Assembly: GCF_021495345.1 (NCBI RefSeq)
Contig: NZ_CP099397.1
Coordinates: 3,286,001 to 3,350,000, forward strand
DNA from: Pseudomonas hydrolytica
GTDB taxonomy: Bacteria > Pseudomonadota > Gammaproteobacteria > Pseudomonadales > Pseudomonadaceae
Length of the DNA: 64,000 nt
Reading direction: 5' to 3'
Each line of letters starts with the position of its first letter. Position 1 is the first letter of the stretch. This document shows positions 54,196 to 58,099 of the stretch, one piece after another. A program made the position numbers and the translations under genes. Below the pieces are notes generated by a model, which saw only the letters and a program-made list of their open reading frames with translations, did not search any database and was not told the origin of the DNA.

Positions 54196-54891
54196 ATGTG
54201 CGGAAGGTTTGCCCAGTACCGAAGCATGCGCGACTACCTGCGCGAGCTCGACAGCGAGCAGGACGCCATGAGCGGCTGGGAGGGCGAGCCAATCCAGCGC
54301 TACAACGTCGCGCCAAGCACCCAGGTGCAGGTGCTGCACAGCACGGGCGGACACCTGGTGGTGGCCGAGGTGAAGTGGGGATGGGCGCCAAACTGGGCGC
54401 GAGGGAAGATGCCACCGCCGATCAACGCCAGGCTGGAGAAAGTGGCCACCGGCAAGTTCTTCAAACAGATATGGCCCCACCGCGCGCTGGTGGCCGCTGA
54501 CGGCTGGTTCGAGTGGGTCAAAGACGAAGACAACCCGAAGATCAAGCAGCCCTACTTCATTCGCCTACGCAGCGGTGACCCGCTGTTCTTCGCCGCCATC
54601 GGCAAATTCCCGCCGGCCGGCGGCGAAACCGACGAAACAGACGGCTTCGTGATCATCACCGCCGATGCCGAGGGCGGAATGGTCGACGTGCATGACCGGC
54701 GCCCGGTCGTGCTCAGCCCCGAACTGGCCCGCGAATGGATCGACCCCGCCACCACCGAGCACCGCGCCGAAATGATGCTACTACACGAAGGCACACCGCC
54801 CGAGGCGTTCGAGTGGTTCCCTGTCGACAGAGCAGTGGGGAACGTGCGGAACCAGGGGCCAGAGCTAATCAAGGCCACCTCAGGGAAGTGA
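54196..54891 (+). CDS. SRAP/YedK-family DNA-protein crosslink protein
   Basis: 231 aa with AGGAGG before the ATG. The catalytic Cys2 follows Met (MCGRFAQY). Other family residues are in RYNVAPST, ADGWFEWV (acidic residue) and MVDVHDRRPVVL (His). HMCES/YedK proteins bind abasic sites in single-stranded DNA through Cys2 and shield them. Here it is divergent from umuDC across a LexA box, so the phage carries an SOS-inducible lesion-tolerance set. Confidence 0.93.
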   Translation: MCGRFAQYRSMRDYLRELDSEQDAMSGWEGEPIQRYNVAPSTQVQVLHSTGGHLVVAEVKWGWAPNWARGKMPPPINARLEKVATGKFFKQIWPHRALVAADGWFEWVKDEDNPKIKQPYFIRLRSGDPLFFAAIGKFPPAGGETDETDGFVIITADAEGGMVDVHDRRPVVLSPELAREWIDPATTEHRAEMMLLHEGTPPEAFEWFPVDRAVGNVRNQGPELIKATSGK

Positions 54892-54968: not shown

Positions 54969-55865
54969 CTATTTAAAAAGGCGCCACCAACTTTTTTTCA
55001 CCTTATTGTCAGGCTCTTCCTCCCAACCTTTCATCCAATTTTCATAATTGCCTTCTAAAGGAAAGAGACCCTCATTCTCCTCAAGTGCAGCGATCTTCCT
55101 AACTGGACGCGCCTCCCCAGATACCGCCGCAAAACGACCAGCAACCTTAGACCCCTGCAAGGTTATACACTCAGCAAGCTTTCGAGCAAAAAAAAGCACA
55201 TCATCAGTGTAAGTCGCAATCCCTTCCAGAGCTGAAACATACTCATTATGAGTAACGCCCTTGACAGGCAAAGCGAGGTAGTAATGCTCCGCCTTGAAGC
55301 CAATAGGTAAGGTTCCGCTTTCAAACATCTCCAAGATATCGTTGTACCGCACGATCATACCGTTAAGATTTTCAACGGCATCTGCCAGGGCAACCATCGA
55401 CTTGACGCCATTGGGCGATACGCTAACTTCCTTGAGAACCATAATCCGCAGTTCAGCGACTGGAGGCTTTATGAGCTGGAACTTCAAGTGATCCATTTTT
55501 AATATAAATGGTTCACCTTGGACGTTAGCTTTTTGATGCTTTTTAAACTGCTCTAAATCTGACTTATGCTTATTTTGAACAATCAATACGTGCTGCTTCT
55601 TGAATGCACCAGCCACATCCATTATTGAAGCACACAATGTCAGCGCAACATCGGCACTGCGAAGTTCTACTAAAAGCTCATCTCTTAACTTTGTATTCCT
55701 GGCAATACGGCCTGCCATCCATGCACCAAAGCCTGCGCCGAAGCCTGCACTAATTAATGCCCCGCCCAATTCAATAGCATCGATTCTAGGGAGACTATCC
55801 AACCAAGGCAGCAACGGAGTAGCAGCTGTATAAATACCGTTAACCGGCCCCCATAAATCCGCCAT
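54969..55865 (-). CDS. Hypothetical protein with one membrane segment (298 aa)
   Basis: The gene is clearly more AT-rich than its neighbours. An N-terminal glycine-rich hydrophobic stretch (IELGGALISAGFGAGFGAWMAGRIA) is followed by a long, mostly helical, soluble region with no recognised motif, ending in KVKKSWWRLFK. It lies alone between the SRAP gene and a small orphan in the prophage accessory zone. By position and composition it could be a moron gene; no function can be assigned. Confidence 0.65.
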   Translation of the reverse strand: MADLWGPVNGIYTAATPLLPWLDSLPRIDAIELGGALISAGFGAGFGAWMAGRIARNTKLRDELLVELRSADVALTLCASIMDVAGAFKKQHVLIVQNKHKSDLEQFKKHQKANVQGEPFILKMDHLKFQLIKPPVAELRIMVLKEVSVSPNGVKSMVALADAVENLNGMIVRYNDILEMFESGTLPIGFKAEHYYLALPVKGVTHNEYVSALEGIATYTDDVLFFARKLAECITLQGSKVAGRFAAVSGEARPVRKIAALEENEGLFPLEGNYENWMKGWEEEPDNKVKKSWWRLFK

Positions 55866-55971: not shown

Positions 55972-56238
55972 TCAGCTGTCGGACTCGTACGCCGCAACAC
56001 CCTCGCCAAACGAGATCCACTCCGACTCAGGCGCCGAAGCCTCGCGCATGATGAACAGCTCGACAGGCTTCCCGGCAGCCGGCTCGGCCGGCCTGACTCG
56101 CGCGAGGCGGTGCGTCTTCACCCCAATGGTGTACGAGCTTTCAGCCCGGTGGAAATCCCACAGCCCCCAGCCGCCAGCCTCACTCAACTTACGCTCAAGC
56201 TTGATCGGCCTCTTGCCGTTCACCCGGATTACCAGCAC
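55972..56238 (-). CDS. Hypothetical protein (88 aa)
   Basis: Short orphan beginning MLVIRVNGKRPIKLERKLSE with GGWGLWDFHRAESSYTIGV. Beta-rich by appearance. No signal peptide or known motif. On the minus strand, downstream of the terminator at 56302-56325, so it needs its own promoter. Confidence 0.55.
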   Translation of the reverse strand: MLVIRVNGKRPIKLERKLSEAGGWGLWDFHRAESSYTIGVKTHRLARVRPAEPAAGKPVELFIMREASAPESEWISFGEGVAAYESDS

Positions 56239-56301
56239 GGCAACACCCCTTCGAGGAAGAAAGCCCGCAGTCTACCCCAACGGACCTGAAACGCCGGGCA
56301 C

Positions 56302-56325
56302 AAAAAAGGGCGCCCCCAGGCGCCC
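56302..56325 (-). terminator. Rho-independent terminator (minus strand)
   Basis: Perfect stem GGGCGCC / GGCGCCC with a four-base loop, preceded on the top strand by six A, which become the U-tract of a minus-strand transcript. It would stop late leftward transcription just beyond the plus-strand 56428-57089 operon. Confidence 0.75.
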
Positions 56326-56359
56326 TCTTCAACTACCGACGAGCGGTATTCTTCTATGC

Positions 56360-56388
56360 TTGATTAAAGCTCTAGAGCTTTATATATT
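56360..56388 (+). promoter_or_regulatory. Sigma-70 promoter with palindromic operator in its spacer
   Basis: TTGATT (56360-56365) and TATATT (56383-56388) are separated by exactly 17 bases. The spacer holds a perfect 16-bp palindrome, AAAGCTCTAGAGCTTT (56366-56381). A repressor bound there would exclude RNA polymerase. The promoter faces the 152-aa gene and the downstream TrfB-like repressor, the natural candidate for binding it. Confidence 0.8.
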
Positions 56389-56427
56389 GAGACCCATGGA
56401 AGGCGAACAAGCCGCAGGAGAAGAACC

Positions 56428-56886
56428 ATGCAACTCACCCACACCAGCCCCGCTGAAATCACCAAGATCGACACCCTCGGCCGCTACGGTGAGTTCCTGT
56501 TCTTCTCTGCAGGCGAATACGTAATGACCGCTGGCAGCCATATCGCCTACACCATCGAACTGGATGACGCTGCCGTGATCCGCGCCGGCGCCCTGTTCTA
56601 CCATGAGGGCGCCGAGAAGCTGGCCGGCCTGGTCGCCGAAGTGGCCGCCCGTTTCGACATCGACGAAGACACCGCCGAAGCGCTGATCGAGGAAAGCAAA
56701 TCCATCTACGACATCAACAGCAACGTCGACGTCGAAGACATGGCCGAAGCCTCATGGGATATTCAGCACTACACCGCCCGCGCCGCTAAGCTGCTTGGCT
56801 TCCGCGGTGTCGCAGTCAGAGACGAACAAGGCACCGCCTACCTTGTTGATATGCTCGGCCGGGAAGCCGATCTGGTGAAAGCATGA
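56428..56886 (+). CDS. AcrIF11-like protein (candidate anti-CRISPR ADP-ribosyltransferase)
   Basis: 152 aa, start behind AGGAG. It resembles AcrIF11 as I recall its sequence: an N-terminal LTHTSPAEITKI...GRYGEFLFF matching LFHGSYEEISEI...GVFGGLFG, a central YTIELDDAAVI and acidic helix, then WDIQHYTARAAKLLGFRGVAV (110-130) and RDEQGTAYLV (131-140) matching WELQRLRGVLAVRLGYTSVEM and EDEHGTTWLC. AcrIF11 inactivates type I-F Cascade by ADP-ribosylation. The match is by eye and may be to the wider fold family. The stop overlaps the next gene as ATGA. An HTH gene follows directly, the arrangement used by acr-aca operons. It is on the opposite strand to the surrounding late genes. Confidence 0.65.
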   Translation: MQLTHTSPAEITKIDTLGRYGEFLFFSAGEYVMTAGSHIAYTIELDDAAVIRAGALFYHEGAEKLAGLVAEVAARFDIDEDTAEALIEESKSIYDINSNVDVEDMAEASWDIQHYTARAAKLLGFRGVAVRDEQGTAYLVDMLGREADLVKA

Positions 56887-57089
56887 CCGCCCAGCAGTTC
56901 TCTGCCCTAGCCGAACTACTGCGCATGCGCGAGGGCGCGAGCAAGGCGGCGGCGCGCCTGGTGCTGGTCGATGGAATCACCCCGGCCGAGGCAGCGCGGC
57001 AAGTCGGCACCACCCCGCAGGCGGTCAACAGCGCGCTACGCAGCTGCGAGCGCGGCCTGGCGCTTGCGCGCATTGCAGCCGGGCTCTAA
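56883..57089 (+). CDS. TrfB/KorA-like helix-turn-helix repressor (candidate Aca)
   Basis: 68 aa, translationally coupled to the preceding gene by ATGA. The helix-turn-helix GITPAEAARQVGTTPQAVNS (31-50) and flanking LRMREGASKAAARLVLVD and SCERGLALARI match the TrfB/KorA DNA-binding family, whose operators are short palindromes. A matching palindrome lies in the operon promoter. Anti-CRISPR-associated (Aca) proteins are small HTH repressors of exactly this layout, so autorepression of the operon is the likely role. Its stop overlaps the convergent Rz1 stop by four bases. Confidence 0.82.
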   Translation: MTAQQFSALAELLRMREGASKAAARLVLVDGITPAEAARQVGTTPQAVNSALRSCERGLALARIAAGL

Positions 57090-57349
57090 TCCCGCTGCAC
57101 CCCCTGCCTCTCAATGCACGCCAGCACCTGCCCGGCGCAACTCAGCAGCGCGGCGTCGGCCGCGTCCAGGGCTTCGCCCCACTGCTCATTGACCAGCACG
57201 GGTGGGCGGTACGGCAGGCGGCACGGCACCAGGCTGCACTCCAGGCGGGGCGGCGTAGGCGGCGGGGTCGGTGGTTTCGGGGCGCTCGTACAGCCGGCCG
57301 AGAGCAGCAGGCACAGCACCAGTGAGATAATCGGCGACGGCTTTGTCAT
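57086..57349 (-). CDS. Rz1-like outer-membrane spanin lipoprotein
   Basis: 87 aa. Signal peptide with lipobox LLLSAGCTSA and a proline-rich stretch (PKPPTPPPTPPR), the hallmarks of o-spanins. It starts inside the Rz gene in another frame and extends 100 bases past its end. With Rz it fuses inner and outer membranes in the last step of lysis. Confidence 0.85.
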   Translation of the reverse strand: MTKPSPIISLVLCLLLSAGCTSAPKPPTPPPTPPRLECSLVPCRLPYRPPVLVNEQWGEALDAADAALLSCAGQVLACIERQGVQRD

Positions 57350-57656
57350 TGCGTTTCAGCTCCGCGAGGGCAGCCGCGTGGGCGGCGTGGTTACGGGCTA
57401 CCGCCTGGCCGAGCTGCTGCATGCGCCGCTCGATCTCTGCCAGATCGCCCAGGGTTTTCTGCTGCTGCGCGAGCACGCCCGCCTGCAGTTCGATCAGCTG
57501 CTCTGCCTTACCCAGATCGGCCTGGGCCTTGTCAGCGCGGCGAGCCTCGATGTCGATACGCGGCGCCATGCCCCACCAGACAACGCCGGCGGCAAGCGCC
57601 ATGAGCAGCAGCACGCCGCCAGCCTTGGCGGCCAGCTGGTACTGGGTGGGAATCAT
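57186..57656 (-). CDS. Rz-like inner-membrane spanin
   Basis: 156 aa. One N-terminal membrane helix (GGVLLLMALAAGVVWWGMA) and a long alpha-helical, coiled-coil periplasmic part rich in Ala, Gln and Glu. Its start overlaps the muralytic gene stop as ATGA. The overlapping Rz1 frame confirms the assignment. Confidence 0.82.
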   Translation of the reverse strand: MIPTQYQLAAKAGGVLLLMALAAGVVWWGMAPRIDIEARRADKAQADLGKAEQLIELQAGVLAQQQKTLGDLAEIERRMQQLGQAVARNHAAHAAALAELKRNDKAVADYLTGAVPAALGRLYERPETTDPAAYAAPPGVQPGAVPPAVPPTRAGQ

Positions 57657-58099
57657 GCCAGCGCCCTCCGCACACCTTCGTCGATCACCTCGGCGCGATA
57701 CGGCTGGCGGCCGTTCTCGTGCTTGATGATCTCGACCACCAGCGCACGCAGCACCGGCCGCTGGCGTACGTCGATGACGGTATCGGATTTCACGCCGAGC
57801 GCCCTGGCGACGGCGGAAATGTAGGCCTCGGTATCGTTTTCGTGGCCAGGCGCCCAGCGGTTAATGGTTTCGCGCACGGTGTCGATGCCAGGGCCGCCGA
57901 CGCCGGGCATACCATCCTTGCCGCGGTAGTTGAGCAGCAGCTTGCCGAGGGCGCGGATGCCATTTTCCGGCGTGTCGAAGCGGGCAAAGCGCGGCCGAGC
58001 CACCCCAAGCTCCAGGCCGAGCTGGCCCTGCCAGTTGTTGCGCGGATTGAAATCGATGTTGCCGGGGTTGTTGTTGCGGACGCCGCGTGGTGTGGACAT
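57653..58099 (-). CDS. Phage muralytic protein (endolysin / structural P5-like)
   Basis: 148 aa beginning MSTPRGVRNNNPGNIDFNPR, a pattern found in phage-encoded peptidoglycan hydrolases and in proteins annotated as structural protein P5. No signal peptide. Just upstream of the spanins in a lysis cassette, so cell-wall cleavage at lysis is likely. No holin gene is evident nearby. The exact enzyme class is not certain. Confidence 0.7.
   Translation of the reverse strand: MSTPRGVRNNNPGNIDFNPRNNWQGQLGLELGVARPRFARFDTPENGIRALGKLLLNYRGKDGMPGVGGPGIDTVRETINRWAPGHENDTEAYISAVARALGVKSDTVIDVRQRPVLRALVVEIIKHENGRQPYRAEVIDEGVRRALA

Follow-up and report, generated by a model that had tools for sequence, protein, structure and literature searches.

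A predicted acrIF11-aca4 operon with a palindrome in its promoter, located among phage genes of Pseudomonas hydrolytica

What does a pair of plus-strand genes encode when it stands as an island among minus-strand phage genes? The question arises at positions 56360-57089 of a 64-kb stretch of Pseudomonas hydrolytica DNA (the window, meaning the whole stretch analyzed), where an initial annotation had proposed a divergent acr-aca locus consisting of an AcrIF11-like gene and a TrfB/KorA-like repressor gene. The proposed layout was borne out. Minus-strand ORFs lie on both sides of the pair, the ATGA coupling of the 152-aa gene to the 68-aa helix-turn-helix (HTH) gene is an overlap of their ORFs at 56883-56886, and position 56360, given as the start of the locus, is the first base of a predicted -35 element, TTGATT. 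We consider it highly likely that the locus is an acrIF11-aca4 operon, forming a 'moron' (a self-contained accessory unit) within a Pseudomonas prophage. The features are as follows:

54969-55865 and 55972-56238, minus strand: upstream neighbor ORFs
56360-56388, plus strand: predicted sigma-70-type promoter (TTGATT at 56360-56365, 17-bp spacer, TATATT at 56383-56388), from the promoter scan
56365-56382, no strand assigned: perfect 18-bp palindrome TAAAGCTCTAGAGCTTTA, predicted operator of the HTH protein, from the palindrome scan
56416-56420, plus strand: AGGAG, likely ribosome-binding site of the acr gene, found by eye 7 nt 5' of the ATG
56428-56886, plus strand: acrIF11, predicted anti-CRISPR ADP-ribosyltransferase of 152 aa, from NCBIfam NF052490.1, PDB 8dwq and the mapped catalytic residues
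56883-57089, plus strand: aca4-like gene, KorA/TrfB-type HTH protein of 68 aa and predicted autorepressor, from Pfam KORA and the relatives' profile
57086-57349, minus strand: Rz1-like ORF, downstream of the pair
57186-57656, minus strand: Rz-like ORF, downstream of the pair
57653-58099, minus strand: endolysin-family ORF, downstream of the pair

AcrIF11 and Aca4-7 were reportedly first described by Marino et al. in 2018. By its sequence, the 152-aa protein is a member of the AcrIF11 family. Its residues 1-140 align with the full length (1-142 of 142) of the NCBIfam equivalog model AcrIF11_anti (NF052490.1) at E 5e-51 and a score of 173.4 bits, where the cut-off is 50, and PHROG family phrog_11282 matched at E 5e-23. 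The motifs by which the initial annotation had recognized the family are present as W110-D-I-Q, LGF (123-125) and DEQGT (132-136). Among solved structures the best match was PDB 8dwq (E 8.1e-51), the NMR structure of AcrIF11Pae2, which is reported to modify Csy1 in P. aeruginosa (PMC12421852). The two proteins share 82 of 150 aligned residues (55%) and differ at 45% of aligned positions. Residues H20, S22, E25, Y46, D146 and E147 of 8DWQ correspond to H5, S7, E10, Y31, D132 and E133 here, and 6/6 are identical. That paper describes D146A/E147A and H20A/Y46A double mutants that lose both Csy1 ADP-ribosylation and phage protection, and an S22A/E25A double mutant that keeps both; the two pairs reportedly needed for activity (H5/Y31 and D132/E133) are kept in the 152-aa protein. 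Because the AlphaFold2 model of the protein itself was poor (mean pLDDT 43.6, from a shallow alignment of seven rows), we infer its ADP-ribosyltransferase fold from the 55% identity to 8DWQ. PADLOC returned a weak DruL match (E 0.0062).

AcrIF11Pae1 (6KYF) belongs to the same family. Residues 103-139 of the 152-aa protein align with residues 91-127 of 6KYF, which has its own W..Q, LG and DE.GT in this segment, as the 152-aa protein does. The direct match between the two is, however, weak (phmmer E 0.91), which is consistent with the similarity of roughly 27% between Pae1 and Pae2 given in PMC12421852. The word 'divergent' therefore holds relative to AcrIF11Pae1 and fails relative to AcrIF11Pae2.

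The 68-aa protein is a small HTH protein of KORA/TrfB type, as had been suggested. It scored 27.1 bits against Pfam KORA, a small margin over the cut-off of 26.7, and also matched HTH_23. Ten relatives at 51-76% identity were combined with it into a profile, residues 20-55 of which matched KorA/TrfB chains, with E 4.1e-4 for 7bbq and E 0.019 for a chain whose sequence 2w7n shares. KORA scores of some relatives fell below the cut-off (17.8 at locus L076 and 25.4 for the S. stutzeri gene, L027), no NCBIfam model named the 68-aa protein and PADLOC had no match for it. The likeness to KorA/TrfB (PDB 2W7N, 5CLV) covers the HTH region only, and those proteins differ in being about 100 aa long. The view that an Aca of this type was undescribed had to be abandoned: Aca4, of 67 aa, has Pfam matches to HTH_23 and KORA and TrfB (2W7N) as its closest structure (PMC9410906, Table 1), and PMC9765179 names KORA as one of the Pfam families that known Acas match and lists AcrIF11 with Aca1 and Aca4-7, making AcrIF11-Aca4 a known pairing. 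A new KorA-type Aca family was rejected since Aca4 is already of that type. The 68-aa protein resembles Aca4 of P. aeruginosa in size, in its KORA and HTH_23 matches, in its position behind acrIF11 and in the palindrome inside the core promoter (compare PMC9410906); this likening is by description and through the 67%-identical gene of L076, rather than by the reference sequence WP_071533911.1. The half-sites read by eye differ, being CACCCTT/AAGGGTT at L076 and AAAGCTC/GAGCTTT in the window. The acr genes associated with aca4 include acrIC7 in P. stutzeri (PMC7913775). Both gene families have already been described together, and what is new here is a further operon of that pairing.

A scan of 56200-57200 returned one promoter-like site, at 56360-56388, with 9/12 consensus bases and a mean of 0.1 sites in shuffled sequence. 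The 17-bp spacer that separates TTGATT from TATATT lies wholly within the palindrome at 56365-56382. The window has just one other perfect palindrome of 18 bp, and a search with this one at up to three mismatches gave a single match with 0 expected. The placement of the palindrome is as expected of Aca autorepression: in PMC9410906, an inverted repeat lies inside the core promoter in all ten promoter sets studied, and repression was found in 10/10 Aca/promoter pairs tested. By analogy with the published homologues, the operon very probably makes a CRISPR-disabling enzyme and a repressor that holds the enzyme in check. The 152-aa enzyme would disable type I-F immunity by ADP-ribosylating Csy1, and the 68-aa protein would bind the spacer palindrome and, when sufficient product had accumulated, silence the operon that encodes it.

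The neighbors of the pair gave family matches to Rz, Rz1, endolysin, tail, UmuD-like and phage DNA polymerase proteins. UmuD/polymerase-like and SRAP-like genes lie on one side and lysis genes on the other and, judged by these gene families, the pair appears to be phage- or prophage-borne. At 56302-56326 there is a GC-rich inverted repeat (AGGGCGCCCCCAGGCGCCCT) followed by a T run on the minus strand, found by eye and in the palindrome scan and absent from the output of the 56200-57200 scan. It looks like a terminator of the minus-strand lysis genes, in which case lysis-gene transcription would first run antisense through acr-aca. Between the UmuD-like and SRAP-like genes and the operon, the minus-strand ORF at 54969-55865 encodes a 298-aa protein with weak matches only (PHROG E 0.011, NCBIfam E 0.075) and none in Pfam or PADLOC; it is possibly another accessory phage gene. 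At locus L003, in contrast, a different protein, of 189 aa, adjoins the umuC-like gene. The product of the plus-strand ORF at 54196-54888, near acrIF11, matched phrog_1599 (function unknown) and starts with MCGR, which is typical of SRAP/HMCES proteins. Among the loci listed, ORFs of this type also occur near acrIF11 in L012 (on a contig shared with L011), L076 and L079.

The reading as an acr-aca locus held up in related sequences. Both genes and the palindrome recur in IMGVR 3300012804 (L003/L025/L046/L072), where the proteins are 82% and 76% identical to those of the window and the palindrome is kept, lengthened to 20 bp (L003/L046). Relatives of the 68-aa protein were found at 44 loci in viral contigs, at 40-76% identity. 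Four tblastn queries (E 1e-3) placed an AcrIF11-like gene at five of these (L072, L076, L078, L079, L080), an AcrIE9-like gene at one (L084) and a 143-144-aa gene at three (L074, L084, L096); the remaining loci, several of which start at a contig end, had no match to the four queries. L076, in a P. aeruginosa-like prophage, carries an AcrIF11Pae1-type gene (6kyf, E 7.7e-54) and then a gene 67% identical to that of the 68-aa protein, and L079 has an acr 91% identical to that of L076 followed by a gene at 63%, with about 60 bp between acr and regulator in both. L078 has the same arrangement of AcrIF11Pae1-type acr and regulator, cut by the contig end. The DNA of L076 matched 106 phage records, all from Pseudomonas and mostly P. 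aeruginosa, the best with 52% coverage at 94.3%. At L014/L036 and L084, a relative of the 68-aa protein shares an operon with an AcrIE9 homologue (that of L014 matched 9wdl at E 1.2e-47), and a single 143-144-aa gene separates the two. Aca4-like genes thus stand behind more than one kind of acr gene: AcrIF11 (window, L072, L076, L079) and, one gene away, AcrIE9.

The 143-144-aa gene lies directly 5' of the Aca4-like gene at L014 (1070-1504), L032 (867-1298) and L037 (2567-3001). Residues 3-40 of the L014 product match AcrIF25 (8jdh, E 3e-9), and the gene is a candidate anti-CRISPR gene by this sequence match. A single contig, IMGVR 3300022741_000065 (L066/L080), carries an acrIF11-like gene on one strand and an Aca4-like gene on the other; small genes of unknown function precede the Aca4-like gene. 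Named genomes held relatives of the 68-aa protein at seven loci: in Pseudomonas indoloxydans, where it follows an AcrIE9 homologue and a 144-aa gene; in Stutzerimonas stutzeri KOS6; and, more distantly, in Rubrivivax, Azoarcus, two Variovorax and Acidovorax. A tblastn search of phages with the 68-aa protein gave nothing at E 0.1.

AcrIF11 loci at large bear on whether the downstream gene reads the palindrome. Seven AcrIF11 proteins used as queries found 25 viral loci. The window and five same-genus loci were added, and three loci were dropped, L048 and L049 for an acr that is an exact copy and L069 for a near copy, which left 28. Twenty of these were placed by eye in five regulator classes, namely KorA (2), MSKAQK (8), MIDA-type HTH (5), RTWQQWE-type XRE (3) and SQRAAAE-type XRE (2), with eight unclassified (L055, L059, L061, L064-L068). 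AcrIF11 genes therefore occur with at least five regulator/operator sets, and the KorA-type partner is a minority (2/28). The palindrome changes with regulator class: the two loci classed as KorA share one palindrome, and other regulators go with other palindromes. Mean agreement over the central 12 palindrome bases was 11.5/12 within classes and 5.1 between them. None of 10000 label shuffles reached the observed within-class agreement, a result that is not a true probability because the loci are related, and treated as independent, and because the labels were set by eye by the author with the palindromes visible in the same printout. For 18/20 loci the nearest Acr shares the regulator class, so that only L047 and L054 separate regulator from acr descent. 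L047 is the cleanest case: its Acr is 80% identical to that of the window, and both its regulator, of HTH_31 type, and its palindrome, CGCTCATTGAGCG, differ. This joint change supports the gene downstream of acr as the predicted reader of the promoter palindrome.

The largest class, MSKAQK, is present at 8/28 AcrIF11 loci (L007-L011, L050, L057, L063). Its members are 59-128 aa long, start with MS[KD].Q[KR] and have the first ~57 residues in common, and ATATCATATGATAT lies in the promoter of all eight loci. At L010 a 217-aa HTH-containing gene stands between acr and the MSKAQK gene, and at L011 the MSKAQK gene is behind a split acr frame. There was no significant match in Pfam (L007-L010, L050, L063; best E 0.069), in NCBIfam (L050, L063) or, by sequence, in the PDB (L008 and a five-row profile; best E 0.65). 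Read by eye, the sequence is possibly that of a ribbon-helix-helix rather than a helix-turn-helix protein. A fold model of one member (mean pLDDT 76.2) has three helices, with a best PDB fold match at E 5.8; it shows no ribbon-helix-helix and neither supports nor excludes that fold. A non-HTH 'Aca13' is mentioned in PMC9765179, and MSKAQK may coincide with it, as compared by description alone. A literature search for ribbon-helix-helix Aca and Aca13 found no name for MSKAQK, which is 'unnamed' within that limited search. The window's regulator, of the known Aca4 type, is distinct from it. Tentatively, AcrIF11 genes might move between interchangeable regulator-plus-operator sets, one of them with MSKAQK as its unrecognized regulator.

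The host itself invites a different view of the enzyme. Its assembly, which is 100% complete, consists of one 5.29-Mb contig, in which neither Csy1 nor Cas1 had a match at E 0.001. The operon would therefore have nothing of type I-F to act on in this cell and would be of use to the phage in other hosts. The same finding would suit an AcrIF11-family ADP-ribosyltransferase that, in the hosts of the phage, acts on a target different from type I-F Csy1, as would the hypothesis that a poorly conserved helical region decides which Csy ortholog is targeted (PMC12421852). We regard this as very unlikely, given the 55% identity to AcrIF11Pae2, reported to modify Csy1, and a score far above the equivalog cut-off. 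Csy1 was moreover found in 3/59 same-genus genomes searched (8/95 overall, 7 over the cut-off), which shows that the genus does include type I-F hosts. AcrIF11 is itself rare in the genus sample, the family model matching 7/398 genomes, 6 over the cut-off. A separate scan of the 398 found an AcrIF11 match in six, of which only the window's own genome also has a match to the 68-aa protein (1/6).

The 68-aa protein could also be a KorA/TrfB-like phage regulator that merely adjoins acr and does not control it. The small share of the 44 viral loci with an AcrIF11-like (5) or AcrIE9-like (1) gene by tblastn fits such a bystander, as do relatives as close as 65-68% (L077, L082) at which the four queries matched no acr, and TrfB-related proteins on plasmids, which align in part, at about 44-49% identity. 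Against these stand the ATGA coupling behind acr, the palindrome common to both AcrIF11 loci of this class and different with other regulators, and the occurrence of relatives in operons with two acr families, and we give the bystander little credence. An ADP-ribosyltransferase gene beside an autoregulating HTH gene would, we infer, look much like a toxin-antitoxin module, with the enzyme as toxin and the HTH protein as antitoxin. That module is the most improbable of these readings and was rejected on the specific, high-scoring AcrIF11 equivalog match; no toxin family was matched in Pfam or NCBIfam, and PMC12421852 reports AcrIF11 to be specific for Csy1 in cells.

The acrIF11-aca4 reading adds a well-formed operon of this pairing and a clear candidate for its operator, from a host that lacks a type I-F system by the searches above. 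The palindrome tracks the regulator class even between close acr genes, as in the window and L047. Matching palindrome to regulator is a simple route to the operators of uncharacterized Aca candidates, and it flags one unnamed family.
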